Below are positions 11,947 to 20,334 of a DNA stretch of 64,000 nt, piece by piece (position 1 is the stretch's first letter; the number at the start of each line of letters is the position of its first letter). This DNA is from Marinobacter nanhaiticus D15-8W. GTDB taxonomy: Bacteria; Pseudomonadota; Gammaproteobacteria; Pseudomonadales; Oleiphilaceae. The notes under the pieces were generated by a model. The model had not been told where the DNA came from. It saw only the letters and a list, made by a program, of their open reading frames with translations, and made no database searches. A program made the translations under genes and the position numbers. The stretch covers positions 3,720,001 to 3,784,000 of the forward strand of contig NZ_AP028878.1 in assembly GCF_036511935.1 (NCBI RefSeq), read 5' to 3'.

Positions 11947-13527
11947 ATGTCTGCGAACGCTTCTCTTCTCGTCGAAATGCTCTGGCGCCTCAAACGGGGT
12001 GCCGACCAGGGACAGTGTCCTGGTGTCCAGTTCATCCACCTGAACAACCTGTTGCGGGATGTCGAGTACCGTGAGGACATCCTCAGCCGGATCGAAGCCG
12101 GCGGTTCCGATGAACTCAAGGCACTGGTGAAGGAAATCCGCGAGGCGGATAACGGCGAACCGCTGATGGCAAAGCCCCGGAGCCAGCGTTACGAGCCCCG
12201 AGAAAAGCAGCCCAGGTCGCCTCGCAGCCGCGGTTTCAAAACCGCCGCCTGGGCATTCCCGGTCGTGACTGCGGCGGCCGTCATCGTTGGTTTTACGGCG
12301 TTCGAGAACAAGACCGTGCGGATCGGTCAGGACATCGTAGCCGACACCACCTGGGAGGCTGGCAAGACCTACGTACTGGAAAAGACCATCTACGTCGAAC
12401 ACGGCGCCAGCCTTACCATCGAGAATGGTGTCACGATCCAGGGCGAGCGAGGCTCGGCATTGATCGTCACCCGCGACAGCAAGCTTTTTTCCCGCGGTAG
12501 TGCAGACAGCCCCGTTATCTTCACCAGCGCCCAGAACGAAGGTCAGCGCAAGCGTGGCGACTGGGGCGGCGTCGCCCTGCTAGGCAAGGCCCCGGTCAAC
12601 CAGCCCAATGCGGCTATCGAAGGCGTACCGGAAGGCGACGCCCGCGGTCAATTCGGTGGCACAGACCGTCAGGACAGCTGCGGCGTGATGCAGTTCACTC
12701 GCATCGAATTCGCCGGTTTCGAAGTCTACAAGGACAATGAACTCAATGGCCTGACACTGGCCGGTTGCGGCCAAAATACGATTATCGAGAATGTCCAGGT
12801 GCACCGCGCCCTGGACGACGGTATCGAGATGTTCGGTGGTCAGGTAGACCTGAAGAACATCGTTATCACCGGTGCCGGCGACGACGGCCTGGACTGGGAC
12901 TGGGGCTGGACCGGACGCGTCCAGTTTGCCGTGATCCAGCACCATCCGGATGATGGCGACAATGGTTTCGAAGGCGACAACAACGGCGACGATCACAATG
13001 CGCGTCCGCGTTCCGAGCCCACCTTCTACAACGTCACGATGGTAGGCGGCGGTCTGTCTGCCAAGAAGCACCGGGGCATGGTGGTTCGTGAGGGTTCCGG
13101 CGGCCACTTCCACAACATGATCATCGACAGCTACGGCATCGAGGCCATCGATCTGCGTGATGAAGTCTCGGCACTGATCGGAGCGGGCACCCTGGAGTTT
13201 TCAGGCAACATCGTCGCCAGCACCGGCAACCTGGGCCAGAGCGCCGATGAGCAGGGCGATACCAATGACGACTACGGCTTCGACGAGAAGGCCTGGATCC
13301 GCTCGTCGCAGAACAATAATAATTTCCGGGTGGAAAGTGCGATGCTGGCTGCCGCACGAAACGTCAGCTCGCCCAACTTCCAGCCGATCATGACTTCACG
13401 CCAGATGCAGGCGGTGGCGCCACCGCAGAGCGAGTTCTTCGACGAATCCGCCATTTACCAGGGCGCCATCAACCCGATTGCGGATAAGAGCTGGCTGGAG
13501 GGTTGGACAGCGTTTCCGGAATCCTGA
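11947..13527 (+). CDS. Membrane-anchored beta-helix protein with cytoplasmic N-terminal domain
   Basis: 526 residues in three parts. Residues 1-75 form a soluble, charged helical domain (FIHLNNLLRDVEYREDILSRI) with no signal peptide; 76-97 are a basic linker; 98-118 are one membrane helix (AAWAFPVVTAAAVIVGFTAF); and 120-526 look like an extracytoplasmic beta-helix rich in D and N (VYLEKTIYVEHGASLTIENGV-type turns, GDDGLDWDWGW, DDGDNGFEGDNNGDDHNA). The basic linker on the inside fits an N-in, C-out orientation. The C-terminal part resembles large secreted proteins of unknown role often annotated as hypothetical. It is the second beta-helix protein in 8 kb. Acidic clusters could bind calcium. 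Function unknown. Confidence 0.65.
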   Translation: MSANASLLVEMLWRLKRGADQGQCPGVQFIHLNNLLRDVEYREDILSRIEAGGSDELKALVKEIREADNGEPLMAKPRSQRYEPREKQPRSPRSRGFKTAAWAFPVVTAAAVIVGFTAFENKTVRIGQDIVADTTWEAGKTYVLEKTIYVEHGASLTIENGVTIQGERGSALIVTRDSKLFSRGSADSPVIFTSAQNEGQRKRGDWGGVALLGKAPVNQPNAAIEGVPEGDARGQFGGTDRQDSCGVMQFTRIEFAGFEVYKDNELNGLTLAGCGQNTIIENVQVHRALDDGIEMFGGQVDLKNIVITGAGDDGLDWDWGWTGRVQFAVIQHHPDDGDNGFEGDNNGDDHNARPRSEPTFYNVTMVGGGLSAKKHRGMVVREGSGGHFHNMIIDSYGIEAIDLRDEVSALIGAGTLEFSGNIVASTGNLGQSADEQGDTNDDYGFDEKAWIRSSQNNNNFRVESAMLAAARNVSSPNFQPIMTSRQMQAVAPPQSEFFDESAIYQGAINPIADKSWLEGWTAFPES

Positions 13528-15242: not shown

Positions 15243-16058
15243 ATGAAACTGCAAGTCCTTAAAACAACGTGGGTTGCCAATGCTGCTGCCGCTGTAGGAA
15301 GCATTCTCCTGTCTACCGGAGCCCTCGCGATGACACCGGGCGGCGATTCCCTTGCCGCCTATGCCGAGGATGGGCCGTTTGCGACGACCAGCCAGTCCGG
15401 TGGCTTCTCCTGCACCATCTATCGTCCGATCAGCCTGCAGGACGACCATCCGGTCATCCTTTGGGGCAACGGCACCGGCGCGTCGCCATCGACCTACGGC
15501 AGCGGCCTGCGGCACTGGGCCTCCTGGGGATTCGTTGTGGCTGCTGCCAATACCTCCAACGCCGGCTCCGGTGAAGAGATGCTGGACTGCCTGGACTACC
15601 TGCAAGGGACCAGCTATGCCGACCAGCTCGACTTTTCCAATGTGGGAGCATCCGGCCACTCTCAAGGCGGCGGCGGAACCATCATGGCTGCCCGCGACAA
15701 CCGCATTACCGCTACAGCGCCGGTGCAGCCCTATATCCTTGGCCTGGGTCACGAAACTTCCTCCCAATACCAGCAGACCGCGCCGATGCTGTTGCTTTCC
15801 GGCTCCGTCGATACCCTGGCCGGCCCTACGCTGAACCAGGCGCCGGTCTACCGCCGTGTTGATGTTCCCGTATTCTGGGCTACGCTCAGGGGAGCCAGTC
15901 ACTTCGAGCCGGTTGGTAATATGGGTGACTTCAGGGGCATCACCACGGCCTGGTGGCTCTACCAGCTGACAGGCGACGCCGATGCTGCGGACCTGTTTAC
16001 CGGCCCCTGCGAAGTGTGTGGTTTGAGTGACTGGGACGTCGAGCGCAAGGGACTGTAA
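15243..16058 (+). CDS. Secreted alpha/beta hydrolase, chlorophyllase/PET-hydrolase-like
   Basis: 271 residues from the ATG at 15243, chosen because it follows GAAGGAAC and opens a signal peptide (…AAAAVGSILLSTGALA). The frame upstream adds 70 unlikely residues. A complete catalytic set is visible: nucleophile S140 in GHSQGG, acid D190 in SGSVDTLAGP and H220 in GASHFEP; WGNGTG supplies an oxyanion-type loop. A C-terminal CEVC pair could form a disulfide. The fold belongs with exported esterases of the chlorophyllase / polyester-hydrolase (PETase-like) superfamily rather than with LipA-type lipases. The natural ester is unknown. An AraC regulator follows, and a Lif-like foldase gene after that. 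Confidence 0.8.
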   Translation: MKLQVLKTTWVANAAAAVGSILLSTGALAMTPGGDSLAAYAEDGPFATTSQSGGFSCTIYRPISLQDDHPVILWGNGTGASPSTYGSGLRHWASWGFVVAAANTSNAGSGEEMLDCLDYLQGTSYADQLDFSNVGASGHSQGGGGTIMAARDNRITATAPVQPYILGLGHETSSQYQQTAPMLLLSGSVDTLAGPTLNQAPVYRRVDVPVFWATLRGASHFEPVGNMGDFRGITTAWWLYQLTGDADAADLFTGPCEVCGLSDWDVERKGL

Positions 16059-16183: not shown

Positions 16184-17230
16184 ATGGATTTCGATGCCAA
16201 GCTCATTCCCCTTCATCGCCACCCTCTCGGTTTTATAGAAGCATTCTGCAGCCTGGGCGCGAGGCAGGAGGAACTTCTCAAGGGCACGGGTATTTCCCCA
16301 GCCACCTTCGATATGCAGGAAGTCTATATTAGCTACAACCAGATCCATGCGTTGATACGCAATGGCATCCGGCTGTGTCCGCTACCTGCAGTCGGTGTCC
16401 ATGTTGGCATGCGCTTTGACTGGTGCTTCTGGGGGCCGGTCGGCTTTGCGGTATACTGCAGCCCGAGCCTCAAGGACGCCGCCGAAGCTTTCAAACGCTA
16501 CATGGTTACGGCCCAGCCCTTCTACACTATGGTTGCCTCACAACCCAATGCTTACCTGGATGCTGACAACCGGGTGGTGGAACCGCTCGACTACCCGACC
16601 GCCGACGACCGTGACCCTATGGTCAGGCAATTCATTCACGAATTCCGGCTCGCAGTAAGCCTGCGTATCTGGGATATGTGCGGCAACAAATCTGTGGACG
16701 ATCCATCGATCCATGTCCGCCTCACCACCCCCAAGCCCGAGGATACGTCGCTCTACGATTCGCTCCCCTGCACGTCGATCACCTTCGACTGTGACGAATC
16801 CAGCATCTCCGGTCAGATCGATTTCGCCTTCAAGCGTTTTCGGTTGCTGCGACTGAGGACATTCGAGCGCCTCGTGCGCCAGTGCGAACGGGAGCTCAGC
16901 CGGATGCCGGCACACGTAACCTTTGCAGACCGCGTCCGTTGGCATATCCGCGCCCACTTCAAACCGGACATCAACCTCGAACAGGTCGCCACCCAACTCA
17001 GCATGACGCCCCGCAGCCTGACCCGTCGCCTGGCCGGAGAGAACGCATCTTTCCGGCGGATCCTGCATGAGGTCAGAATGGAGATCGCGTCCCACCAGCT
17101 GCGGTTTTCCCGGCTAAGTGTCGAGGATGTCTCCGAGATCACCGGTTTTTCCTGTGCCTCAAGCCTGCGCCGGGCCATGAAGAACTGGACTGGCACGACT
17201 ATTAGCCAGATCCGCGAAGCTGTTGCCTGA
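16184..17230 (+). CDS. AraC-family regulator with arabinose_bd-type N-domain
   Basis: 348 residues. Residues ~15-200 match the N-terminal ligand-sensing domain found in OruR/ArgR-like and other lipid- or amino-acid-responsive AraC proteins (FWGPVGFAVYCSPSLKDAAEAFKRYM). The C-terminal ~100 residues hold the double helix-turn-helix (LEQVATQLSMTPRSLTRRL … VEDVSEITGFSCASSLRRAM). Members with this N-domain often control esterase, lipase or fatty-acid genes, so the flanking hydrolase and Lif-like gene are reasonable targets; that is inference. It is followed after 9 bases by the Lif-like gene, whose ribosome-binding site overlaps this gene's end, so they are probably co-transcribed. Confidence 0.85.
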   Translation: MDFDAKLIPLHRHPLGFIEAFCSLGARQEELLKGTGISPATFDMQEVYISYNQIHALIRNGIRLCPLPAVGVHVGMRFDWCFWGPVGFAVYCSPSLKDAAEAFKRYMVTAQPFYTMVASQPNAYLDADNRVVEPLDYPTADDRDPMVRQFIHEFRLAVSLRIWDMCGNKSVDDPSIHVRLTTPKPEDTSLYDSLPCTSITFDCDESSISGQIDFAFKRFRLLRLRTFERLVRQCERELSRMPAHVTFADRVRWHIRAHFKPDINLEQVATQLSMTPRSLTRRLAGENASFRRILHEVRMEIASHQLRFSRLSVEDVSEITGFSCASSLRRAMKNWTGTTISQIREAVA

Positions 17231-17239
17231 GGAACGGCT

Positions 17240-18115
17240 ATGCTCCGCTTCAATACAAAGTTCCAAAGCAACGCAAAGCGTACCGAAGTAAAGCTCAGAC
17301 GCGATCAACGACAGCGGACCTTCAAGTTTAGTCTGGCCATAGCGGTCCCATTGGCCCTGCTGATGGCGGCGACCTTCATTGGTTTGAAAGCAACCACGCC
17401 GGAGAACGCCACTCCACTTCAAACCCAAACCTCACCGCAAGGTACGCAATCACCGCAACTTGAAAAGCCGTCCGAAACCGGCGGCGTGTCGCCCAAACCT
17501 ACGGCAGGTGTCACCACTCATTTACCAAGTAAATACATCGAGCTGCCGGCTCCTTCCTCTGAGCGGCACGTCTCCCAGACAGAACAGGACCCCGTTTTCA
17601 AGCTGGACGACATCGCCACGGCCCTGAGTCGCATCAAGCTCGATGACGACGGCCAGATCCTGGTCGACCGGCAAGTCAGAACAGTGCTGGAAGCTGCATT
17701 CATGCAACCGAAAACACCCGTAGACGAAACCCGTTTCGAAGAGCTCAAGACTCTGATCGCAGGGGGGCTGGATGGTGAAGCGGGACAACAGGCCGCTGCC
17801 ATGGCTGAACGTTTCTATCGCTATAGCAATGCCTATCGGGAAGTGGCGGACACCTTCGGTCACCACGGCGCGCTACAGAACGTTGAAGCCGATTTCGAGC
17901 AACTCAGCCGCCTGCGTCGGACTTATCTCGGCGACGAACTCAGCGATTCGTTGTACGGCGAGGAAGAAGCCCTGATGCGCTATACCCTGCAAAGCATGCG
18001 TATCCAGACCGACGGGAAACTGTCACCAGAACAGAAACAGGTGCAGCAGGAACAACTCAGGAAGCGGGTGCCGTCGGCGTTGCTCGGCGCGCCGGAACAA
18101 GCCAGCCCGCCCTGA
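17240..18115 (+). CDS. Lipase-chaperone (Lif)-like membrane-anchored protein
   Basis: 291 residues. A short basic N-tail, a membrane anchor (FSLAIAVPLALLMAATFIGL, about 32-51), a variable P/T/Q-rich linker (to ~115), then a helical domain resembling the C-terminal part of lipase-specific foldases: ILVDRQVRTVLEAAF, AERFYRYSNAYREVA and FEQLSRLRRTYLGDELSDSLYGEEEALMRY divided here over several helices. In true Lif proteins an RxxFDY motif is needed for folding the lipase; here only the arginine remains. No LipA-type lipase is in the window; the secreted hydrolase upstream is the nearest candidate client. Its last 59 bases overlap the convergent acyltransferase gene. Confidence 0.65.
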   Translation: MLRFNTKFQSNAKRTEVKLRRDQRQRTFKFSLAIAVPLALLMAATFIGLKATTPENATPLQTQTSPQGTQSPQLEKPSETGGVSPKPTAGVTTHLPSKYIELPAPSSERHVSQTEQDPVFKLDDIATALSRIKLDDDGQILVDRQVRTVLEAAFMQPKTPVDETRFEELKTLIAGGLDGEAGQQAAAMAERFYRYSNAYREVADTFGHHGALQNVEADFEQLSRLRRTYLGDELSDSLYGEEEALMRYTLQSMRIQTDGKLSPEQKQVQQEQLRKRVPSALLGAPEQASPP

Positions 18116-19637
18116 ACAGGGTCGCAAGCAGCGCGCCATACAGCACGCTACGGAAAAGCCAGGGGAACCGGGTGAATAGACTGTCTACCCCGGACGCCGC
18201 CACCGGGATATCGACCCAGTAACCGGCCTCTTCACCGTAGGCAGACTGGAACAGGCGCTGGCCATTGGGCAATACGACCGCCGAGGGGCCGTTGTTCATC
18301 ACATGCAACAGCGGCGTCCGATTTTCCACGGCACGAAGCACCGAGGCATTGAGATGTTGAAAAGGCTGCTGCGTGGGGCCGAACCAGGCGTTGTTGGATA
18401 CCGTGACCAGCAACTCGCCGGGGCCACCACCACGGGCCGCATCGGCCACAAAGTAGGGAAACATCGCCTCGTAGCAGATCAGCGGAACCACCTGCATGCC
18501 CTTGAGCGGAAACCGGGCCGGCCCTTCCCCGGCCGATACATGGCTGAAAAAATCCCCCAACTCTCCCCGCACCCAGCGCCGGGCTTCCGGGAACACCCCA
18601 AGGAGCGGCAAGTACTCGCCAAAGGCGACCCGCTTGGTCTTGCGGTAATGGCCCTGGTCACGCCCCTCGTCATCGATAAGCACCGCCGTGTTGAACTCCG
18701 AGCGGCTGTGGGCGTGATTTTCCCGCTCCATCGCCTGGAACAGCAACGCCGCCTGCATCCGGTTGGCCGACCGGCGGAAGGCCTCGGCAACGCGCGGTTC
18801 ATGGAAATAGGAATTGAACCGGGCCTCGGGCCAGACCACCAGCCCGGCACCCGCGTCGGCAAGTTGTTCCGACAGGGCAAGCGCGCGCGGGTAGCTCGAG
18901 CTATAGCCGGCCGCCGGCGGCCGCTGATCCACGCCTGCCGGTACGTTTTCCTGCACAAATCCGACACGGCGGGTCGGCCACTCCGCCAGACGGGCGTCCC
19001 ATAAACCGAGACTAACCAAGCCATACGCTAGCCAAGCCAATGGCAGCACCGCCGCCGCCCAGCCGATCCGGTCGCGCTGGGCCGGAACCTGCCCGGCCAA
19101 CCAGCGGAATAGCAAAACGTTGACCAGCGCGATCAGCGCATCCAAACCAAGTACGCCGGTCAGGGATACCGCCTGCAGGGCGGTCAGGAACAGACTCTGG
19201 CTTTCGCCAAGCTGGGCGTGGAAGAGCATCGGGAAATGGCCGAAGAACAAGGCGACGAGCATTGGGAACAGCAGGAGGTCCGACCAACCGGTCCGGCGCC
19301 TGAGCCACTGGAACACCAGTGCCAAGAACGCCGGCAGCTGTGCGCTGTACAACCAGAAGAGAGCGGAGAGCAGAAAGGTTACGAACGGGCCAGGCGCCCA
19401 GAGCTGCCCGATAAAACCGACGATCCACCAGGCGCCGACACCATAGAGCGCCAGTCCACAGATCAGTCCCAATAGGTAGGCCTCGGCCAGGCGTTTGCCC
19501 CGCAAGGCAAACAACAAGGGTACGAAACCCGCCCAGCTCAACAGGAACAGCTCGCTGTGGTTGTACGGCAACGCCAGCAGTACACCCGCACTTGCGGCCA
19601 GGAGGCTATCCGTGGCGAGTAAACGTCCCTGACTCAC
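18057..19637 (-). CDS. lnt: Apolipoprotein N-acyltransferase (Lnt)-type enzyme
   Basis: 526 residues from a GTG at 19637 that overlaps the upstream stop (GTGA), which implies translational coupling. The first ~210 residues contain about six membrane helices (FLLSWAGFVPLLFAL, YLLGLICGLALYGVGAWW); the rest is a periplasmic nitrilase-like domain. The catalytic triad is complete and at the usual positions: E271 (WPEARF), K333 (YRKTKRVAFGEY) and C388 (LICYEAMFP), against E267/K335/C387 in E. coli. Lnt adds the third acyl chain to lipoproteins in the inner membrane. Housekeeping lnt normally lies next to ybeX/corC, so this copy, paired with a Lif-like gene, may be an accessory paralogue. Confidence 0.85.
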   Translation of the reverse strand: MSQGRLLATDSLLAASAGVLLALPYNHSELFLLSWAGFVPLLFALRGKRLAEAYLLGLICGLALYGVGAWWIVGFIGQLWAPGPFVTFLLSALFWLYSAQLPAFLALVFQWLRRRTGWSDLLLFPMLVALFFGHFPMLFHAQLGESQSLFLTALQAVSLTGVLGLDALIALVNVLLFRWLAGQVPAQRDRIGWAAAVLPLAWLAYGLVSLGLWDARLAEWPTRRVGFVQENVPAGVDQRPPAAGYSSSYPRALALSEQLADAGAGLVVWPEARFNSYFHEPRVAEAFRRSANRMQAALLFQAMERENHAHSRSEFNTAVLIDDEGRDQGHYRKTKRVAFGEYLPLLGVFPEARRWVRGELGDFFSHVSAGEGPARFPLKGMQVVPLICYEAMFPYFVADAARGGGPGELLVTVSNNAWFGPTQQPFQHLNASVLRAVENRTPLLHVMNNGPSAVVLPNGQRLFQSAYGEEAGYWVDIPVAASGVDSLFTRFPWLFRSVLYGALLATLFRAGWLVPARRATPTAPAS

Positions 19638-20200
19638 CTTGTACCCTGCCCTAAAGACGCCGCGCTTGAACCGCCTCCACCCATGGCCCGCTGCATGGCG
19701 TTCTGCTGATGGAACAGCGCACGGGCGTTCGAACGCCCGAAGTGGGCTGCCTGAAGATATTCAAGCTCGGTCAGGGTCAGCGGAGAGGAGAACCGACGGC
19801 GCGCTTCGCGGTAATCGGTATAACGGAACAGGAACTCCGCCAGCTCAGCTCCCGCCTCGGACGGTAGTCCTTGCTGCAGCAGGAAACGAATACGAGCCCG
19901 GGTTTCGGCAGGTATGGGCGACGCCATACCCTCTGCACTCGCCTCCAACGCGGCAGCGGTCCGGGCATCGACAATGAGGTCCCCGGAAACCGTAAGTGGT
20001 GCCCGCTCCATCAGCCGATCCAGCACGCCCCAGTCCACCATTGCGCCCGAGCCATCCCAAGGCGCCAATGTAACTCGCCCCACTAACCCAGCCGCATTGT
20101 GTCCGGGTGTCAGGACCGCCGCAGCGCAGACGAAGATCGCCAGAAGGATCGGAGGGATAAACGCCCCAGCGCGGGAAGACGACATCGCTTGGACATCCAT
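19634..20200 (-). CDS. Short Lif-like (lipase-chaperone-like) membrane protein
   Basis: 188 residues from the ATG at 20200 (the frame also opens at a TTG at 20209; neither has a clear ribosome-binding site). A membrane anchor (IPPILLAIFVCAAAVLT) is followed by a compact helical domain aligning to the Lif-like protein at 17240-18115: GDLIVDARTAAALEAS, LAEFLFRYTDYREARRRF and LTELEYLQAAHFGRSNARALFHQQNAM, the last resembling the L..LR..hFG…A..LF.EE helix of lipase foldases. It lacks the long linker and the RxxFDY motif. It overlaps the acyltransferase start by 4 bases, so the two form one operon. No lipase accompanies it. Role unknown. Confidence 0.6.
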   Translation of the reverse strand: MDVQAMSSSRAGAFIPPILLAIFVCAAAVLTPGHNAAGLVGRVTLAPWDGSGAMVDWGVLDRLMERAPLTVSGDLIVDARTAAALEASAEGMASPIPAETRARIRFLLQQGLPSEAGAELAEFLFRYTDYREARRRFSSPLTLTELEYLQAAHFGRSNARALFHQQNAMQRAMGGGGSSAASLGQGTR

Positions 20201-20334
20201 TTTTGCCAATAGTGTGATGCGTCATGCTAACACCGGCCAGACTCGCGGACGCTAACGCCAGATACCCACCACATCATCCAGGTGGAAACTGAAGTTACAA
20301 CTCCATGAAAAGACGGGCTTCGCGTTGCGGAAGA

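Follow-up and report, generated by a model that had tools for sequence, protein, structure and literature searches.

Divergent Lif-like proteins and an Lnt paralogue accompany PETase-family genes: a putative module for polyester hydrolase biogenesis in Marinobacter nanhaiticus and other sampled genomes

In this work, we analysed a 64,000-nucleotide stretch of the Marinobacter nanhaiticus D15-8W genome (the window; contig NZ_AP028878.1, positions 3,720,001 to 3,784,000). One locus in it encodes a secreted cutinase/PETase-like hydrolase, two relatives of the lipase-specific foldase Lif, here named LifA and LifB, and a paralogue of the apolipoprotein N-acyltransferase Lnt, here named Lnt2. The locus is probably one form of a conserved hydrolase-LifA-LifB-Lnt2 module that serves the biogenesis of polyester hydrolases of the secreted PETase or cutinase type, in which Lnt2 would use an acyl acceptor other than an ordinary lipoprotein. 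The near-constant company of this gene set and enzymes of the polyethylene terephthalate (PET) hydrolase type in the sampled genomes suggests a dedicated system for making and exporting such enzymes. Homology, gene order, co-occurrence and the changes in motifs and residues were established directly; from them we infer the membrane topology, the identity of the client, a chaperone role for LifA and LifB, the activity of Lnt2 and what it acylates.

The gene for the candidate client lies on the forward strand (15243..16058; PF12740, 53.6 bits, cut-off 28) and is followed on the same strand by genes for an AraC-family regulator with an Arabinose_bd domain (16184..17230; PF12625 and PF12833) and for the 291-residue LifA (17240..18115). 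The reverse strand carries the genes for the 526-residue Lnt2 (18057..19637; TIGR00546, 218.9 bits, cut-off 132.9) and for LifB (19634..20200), a short Lif-like protein recognized by family profiles and by its position before Lnt2. Two starts are available to LifB, ATG at 20200 and TTG at 20209. Its stop codon overlaps the Lnt2 start by four bases (GTGA; 19634..19637, reverse strand), an overlap that points to translational coupling of the two genes, and the coding ends of LifA and Lnt2 overlap tail to tail by 59 bases (18057..18115). A preliminary description of this DNA had given these coordinates, strands and overlaps correctly. The ends of LifA and Lnt2 also overlap in G041 and G035, where a hydrolase of the same type occupies the equivalent position; cutinase-AraC-LifA facing Lnt2-LifB, beside azlC, is the form present in three of the six genomes of the window's genus (the window's own, G041 and G035). 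An AraC gene adjoins LifA in eight loci (the window, L054, L055 and L058-L062).

Gene order beyond the window is one sign that these genes belong together. Of 23 Lnt2 loci, 22 could be tested upstream, that of G425 stopping at a contig end, and a Lif-like gene on the same strand stood directly upstream of Lnt2 in all 22. This gene was LifB in 21 cases (only partly visible in G013) and a full-length Lif in the remaining one. The spacing of -4 bases seen in the window recurred in 12 of the 22 loci, the whole range being -47 to +11 bases. Among 38 control loci with other Lnt genes (37 distinct, L001 being identical to L053; flanks of up to about 1.5 kb, some under 1 kb upstream), a Lif-like gene was found nearby in only one (L075 of G030). 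In 11 loci (L130-L137, L243, L257 and L258) the order was LifA-LifB-Lnt2, and in five of these, from families f1, f38 and f189, a PETase-family gene headed the run: with an AraC gene in G496 and G480, with an AraC gene and a PETase split over three frames in G135 (L243, 11907-12851), and directly in G676 and G788 (L257 and L258), which belong to another order. Because this order recurs in other loci, the window holds a wider module in rearranged form. The description of a Lif-like pair placed around an Lnt thus holds for the window as a local form, whereas the 11 other loci have both genes before Lnt2; the survey of the Lif-like and Lnt pair that had been proposed showed it to be conserved across several families and one further order.

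In 13 of the 23 loci a PF12740 protein, either PETase or cutinase and in one case broken, was encoded no more than 10 kb from Lnt2; in G011 a cutinase gene precedes LifB by about 1.6 kb (L056). Behind Lnt2, genes for a GDSL hydrolase and for an FGE-sulfatase-domain protein occur in L089, L092, L130 and L134 and in part in L087 and L090, and several of these GDSL proteins have a Gly-rich N-terminus. Neither protein qualifies as a general client, as a GDSL gene is near Lnt2 in just six of the 23 loci, one of them a piece of 97 residues.

Co-occurrence was evaluated in genome samples drawn from the family, order and class of the window; the scans scored the best few candidates per genome (at most 3, 9, 6, 4 and 14), so that misses are possible. 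In the family sample (163 genomes), a PF12740 match at E <= 1e-10 was present in 11 genomes, and Lnt2 was present in the same 11 and in G036 (Fisher test, 3e-16; 0.003 at the genus level). In the order sample (390 genomes), 11 genomes had Lnt2, 12 had a PETase above 350 bits and nine had both (Fisher test, 2e-14; 1.4e-5 at the genus level). The two order-sample genomes with Lnt2 and no PETase above 350 bits were G011, which has a cutinase, and G425, which has a PF12740 match at 3e-24. In genus g13, represented by at least 107 genomes, the same six genomes carry a PETase-family gene and Lnt2. Another 29 genomes of the order sample had weaker PF12740 matches (E <= 1e-20, below 350 bits), and among them G425 alone had Lnt2. 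Since just one of these 29 has it, the link of Lnt2 is to high-scoring PETases and cutinases and not to PF12740 proteins at large. Counted over all Lnt2 genomes, 22 of 23 have a PF12740 gene. The exception, G036 (83% complete), has no PF12740 match; there a secreted class-2 lipase, a PPIC-type peptidyl-prolyl isomerase, a full-length Lif and Lnt2 are encoded in a row (L091, G036:C9, 8673-13150), so that the hydrolase is another one and the plan is the same.

LifA and LifB are, by profile and alignment evidence, divergent homologues of Lif. The window's LifA scored 58.5 bits against the Pfam family Lipase_chap (PF03280; cut-off 25.7), covering profile positions 3-94 of 192 only, and the LifA family profile matched the Lif chain 2es4_D in PDB at 9.7e-16. 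LifB of the window reached no family cut-off on its own and had no PF03280 match. It matched the window's LifA in BLASTP (E = 2e-6), and its family profile aligned in hhalign with canonical Lif (probability 97.8%) and with the LifA family (98.5%); the only PDB match of the 18-row LifB profile at E <= 10 was the lipase chaperone 9g8u_B (4.6e-7). Six LifB orthologues passed PF03280 by themselves (L131, 40.9 bits; L130, 33.7; L258, 30.8; L089, 28.1; L090, 25.9; L087, 25.7), and five did not (L054, L055, L056, L136 and L257). A chance resemblance of the two proteins to each other and to Lif is ruled out by the BLASTP, hhalign and PDB profile matches, and the preliminary view that both are Lif-like, here based on sequence profiles, was borne out. 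The Lif trees were quick searches in which the LifB grouping is weak; the long Lif proteins of L089, L092 and L091, first labelled LifA, grouped on the LifB side.

Like the Lif/LipH foldases that serve LipA in Pseudomonas aeruginosa and Burkholderia glumae (PF03280), LifA and LifB have a Lif domain that follows a hydrophobic stretch at the N-terminus, read by eye in both window proteins, and they often adjoin a gene for a secreted alpha/beta hydrolase. They differ in coming as two proteins per system, in having a PETase or cutinase as candidate client where Lif has a family I lipase, in having an Lnt paralogue as part of the set, and in reaching, in the window, no further than roughly the first half of the Pfam domain. 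The back part of the Lif domain is gone from the window's LifA, which lacks the complete folding domain made up of mini-domain 1, extended helical domain and mini-domain 2 (MD1-EHD-MD2), and the short LifB family aligns with the front part of Lif only. Outside the window's subclade LifA is mostly longer, the exceptions being those of L257 and L258. A further difference concerns the RxxFDY motif, which, according to the account of it in PMC7046727, is conserved across all foldase families and inactivates the foldase when mutated. FDY is missing from both window proteins, as had been noted in the preliminary description, from 26 of 26 LifA rows and from all 20 LifB rows that cover the site (row L093 ends at a contig edge and is outside the count), and also from the Lif-like proteins of L241 and L242. 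Of five canonical-type Lif proteins compared, two had FDY and three had near variants. The genome of the window also encodes a canonical-type Lif at 4.966 Mb; none of the five neighbouring genes scanned encodes a lipase.

Lnt2 has the LNT_N and CN_hydrolase domains, as Lnt does, and is above the cut-off of TIGR00546. It is not the only lnt of the genome, a possibility ruled out by a second gene at 1.877 Mb. Two Lnt genes exceed the LNT_N cut-off, and this other one, sought as a ybeX-linked lnt and found, stands with genes for CorC (ybeX), YbeY, PhoH and a MiaB-type radical SAM protein, the housekeeping arrangement. In the window's genus, each of the three genomes that carry Lnt2 also has a housekeeping lnt. 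Best scores against Lnt2 fell into two distinct groups in every sample: 636-767 bits in 12 genomes and then 211 bits in the family sample, 488-809 bits in 11 genomes and at most 163 bits in the rest in the order sample, and 590-751 bits in the window's own genome, G676 and G788 and then 172 bits in the class sample (369 genomes). In a tree of 48 Lnt proteins, likewise a quick search, the 23 Lnt2 sequences stood together behind a long branch (SH-like approximate likelihood ratio test [SH-aLRT], 99). By score and by tree, Lnt2 is a separate subfamily. Two f1 genomes, G013 and G135, grouped in the Lnt2 tree with another family and another order (rows L093, L243, L133, L135, L257 and L258), a placement that suggests horizontal transfer of the module. 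In a plasmid search, all matches were below 60% identity, and among the matches listed identity was about 30%. A further group of Lnt paralogues was seen in genus g4 (L244 of G003, L078 of G036 and L086 of G030); each gene is convergent with an AraC-type regulator gene and has no Lif-like gene in the flanks covered.

The E271/K333/C388 triad reported in the preliminary description is indeed present and is invariant in 20 of 20 aligned Lnt2 sequences. Lnt2 retains the residues for acyl-enzyme formation: in E. coli numbering, E267, K335 and C387 as well as E343, E389 and W415 are kept in 23 of 23. Other positions set it apart from Lnt: W237 is present in none of the 23 Lnt2 sequences and in 21 of 21 housekeeping rows, the WxRxW stretch (137-141) is deleted, and R442 is replaced by H. 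According to the text on this residue in PMC6971011, W237 of E. coli Lnt is essential only for the second step, acyl transfer to the apolipoprotein. A lipobox pattern scan of the loci revealed no conserved local lipoprotein that could be the client of Lnt2. Taken with the lack of W237, this leaves the idea that the foldase-like proteins act in lipoprotein acylation unsupported in the form in which it was put forward.

The hydrolase at 15243 had also been proposed as a possible client, and it makes a good candidate. Its GHSQG fits the GxSxG pattern, its PDB matches include 9w68 ('PETase'; 6e-92) and 2fx5 ('lipase'; 3e-82), the latter of which we take to be the Pseudomonas mendocina enzyme, and these similarities mark it as a cutinase/PETase relative with predicted polyester-hydrolysing activity. 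Read by eye, it has a signal peptide and the mature N-terminus MTPGGDSL. Cleavage sites here and below were set by eye and with crude scripts rather than a trained predictor, and one such script placed several sites too early. Of the 19 PETases of Lnt2 genomes whose N-terminus was readable by eye, two lack a spacer ahead of the catalytic domain; in the other 17 the signal peptide is followed by a spacer of about 19-29 residues, Gly-rich with GGG in 10 and rich in P, T and D in seven. When 93 genes of the gene-called loci with signal-peptide-like starts were scanned crudely, which missed some cases visible by eye, only four showed GGG at the mature N-terminus, and these four encode hydrolases of the two folds discussed below (alpha/beta and SGNH). 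The PETase tree, also a quick search, contains long branches.

Taking these data together, we propose that LifA and LifB, presumably anchored in the inner membrane by their N-terminal hydrophobic stretches, would bind the hydrolase once Sec has exported it; in the periplasm they would then hold it or bring it to maturity, much as Lif acts on lipase. Contact with the client would be made by a motif other than FDY, whose loss would go with the change of client. Lnt2, coupled to LifB, would form the usual Cys acyl-enzyme (thioester) from phospholipid and donate its acyl chain to some acceptor that is not an ordinary lipoprotein. The hydrolase itself is the most economical acceptor, because 17 of 19 PETases have the spacer and other hydrolase families at such loci start Gly-rich; it would most likely be acylated at this flexible spacer and be tethered before or after export. 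A more specific and much more tentative version, which we consider improbable, is that Lnt2 is a protein acyltransferase of a new type: it would N-acylate secreted hydrolases that are not lipoproteins, using the N-terminus left after signal peptidase I cleavage, with LifB and LifA presenting the substrate, and so give polyester hydrolases a lipid anchor without a lipobox Cys. In its favour, Gly-rich mature N-termini that resemble a Cys-less lipoprotein linker occur in some members of two folds, alpha/beta (PETase, cutinase, class-2 lipase and the G030 lipase) and SGNH (GDSL protein). It is weakened by the seven P/T/D-rich and two spacerless PETases among the 19 and by the cutinases of the window's genus, which have only GG at the mature N-terminus.

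Several observations weigh against the module as proposed. Active PETases can be produced in E. coli with no helper proteins, and three f20 genomes with a PETase above 350 bits have no Lnt2 and no Lif-like gene in the flanks covered (L231-L233); given these two facts, the module is not strictly required. The spacer of the three f20 PETases is about 11-12 residues, and the PETases of L063 (G000) and L097 (G035) have no N-terminal spacer. No Lif-like gene was present in the covered flanks of 18 PF12740 loci away from Lnt2, nine without Lnt2 beside them (L231-L233, L236-L240 and L245) and nine standing separately in Lnt2 genomes (L234, L235 and L259-L265), nor was a PETase or cutinase gene present in the covered flanks of LifA in L057 (G011) and L059-L062 (four g13 genomes). 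PETase and Lnt2 lie on different contigs in G329, G387 and six f1 genomes, and the Fisher tests count related genomes as independent. The loop of W237 is rebuilt in Lnt2, and because seven of the 23 sequences have a W further along it, replacement of W237 by another W is possible.

Other explanations share parts of this evidence. LifA and LifB could serve the hydrolase, with Lnt2 acylating some lipid or other small molecule, such as a surfactant-like N-acyl compound, that aids the attack on a hydrophobic polyester. Retention of the acyl-enzyme residues alongside the changes at W237, WxRxW and R442, and the lack of a conserved lipoprotein client in the loci, would fit this, but the position of Lnt2 directly behind the chaperone-type LifB in 21 of 22 loci points to a protein partner, and clustering of the fetched neighbourhoods showed no biosynthetic gene common to the loci; we regard it as unlikely. 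It is slightly less plausible still that LifA and LifB, instead of being hydrolase chaperones, are partners of Lnt2 in its assembly or regulation and that the module remodels the envelope under hydrolase-producing conditions. In favour of this, LifB is locked to Lnt2, 10 of the 23 loci have no PF12740 gene within 10 kb (some are cut by contig ends), and a Lif-like gene is absent from the separate PETase loci compared. This explanation is hard to reconcile with LifA genes that stand with a PETase or cutinase gene and no Lnt2 alongside (L063, L097 and L058). The first of these, in the window's own genome, and L097 have the order PETase-AraC-LifA apart from Lnt2; likewise, in G302 (L241) and G469 (L242), both of which lack Lnt2, an FDY-less Lif-like gene stands next to a divergent PF12740 gene.

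Two further readings deny any joint function. It is very improbable that Lnt2 acts as a second apolipoprotein N-acyltransferase of the conventional kind and that its linkage is incidental: it has the TIGR00546 score and the full triad expected of one, but stands in a separate long-branch group, lacks W237 in 23 of 23 sequences, coexists with a housekeeping lnt in three genomes of the genus and matches the PETase-family genes near-perfectly in the family sample. Least of all would we expect PETase and Lnt2 merely to share a niche or to hitch-hike, as accessory genes carried by bacteria that use polyester or hydrocarbons, with no joint work. The distribution of each is patchy, and the grouping of G013 and G135 with other families is what transfer would give, but co-travel leaves the PETase-(AraC)-LifA-LifB-Lnt2 runs in five loci of f1, f38 and f189 (one PETase broken) and the retention of LifB directly before Lnt2 unaccounted for.

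The proposed module touches on marine PET hydrolases already described from Marinobacter, Ple628 and Ple629 (PMC7666164). When three PETases of Lnt2 genomes were compared with PDB, they matched Ple628, Ple629 and other polyester hydrolases; Ple628 was the best PDB match of the G093 PETase and of one of the two G099 PETases searched, both genomes being Lnt2-bearing members of f1, and from this match genus g13 appears to be Marinobacter-like. In alignments, Ple628 has a Gly-rich stretch before the catalytic domain similar to that of the PETases of Lnt2 genomes. The words 'chaperone' and 'acyltransferase' do not occur in the main text of PMC7666164. In literature searches of limited wording that covered open-access papers, we found none tying PETases, polyester hydrolases or cutinases to lipase chaperones or foldases, none tying Lnt to PETase or to a lipase-specific foldase, and none on a PETase gene cluster with a chaperone and AraC. 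If natural producers do rely on an acyltransferase and a dedicated pair of chaperones, the finding would have consequences for the folding, export or surface retention of PET and other polyester hydrolases and would offer helpers for their heterologous production. The Lnt family would gain a function outside lipoprotein maturation, and Lif-type chaperoning would extend beyond lipases, with the FDY contact changing with the client.

A related arrangement was seen in L094 (G030:C45, 6528-10128), where a secreted lipase-like alpha/beta hydrolase, a Lif and an Lnt paralogue are encoded in a row; it differs in that the Lif has FDY and the Lnt lies outside the Lnt2 group on a very long branch. The mature N-terminus of this lipase, read by eye, is Gly-rich (GGGAKTY). 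In L058-L062, AraC and LifA genes without Lnt2 stand beside a pair of genes for large proteins, which in L059 are an AcrB-type pump and an HlyD-type partner; the pairs of the other loci cluster with these. Elsewhere in the window, 11947-13527 encodes a 526-residue protein with a sub-threshold beta-helix match, whose gene lies beside djlA in G041 and G035 as well.

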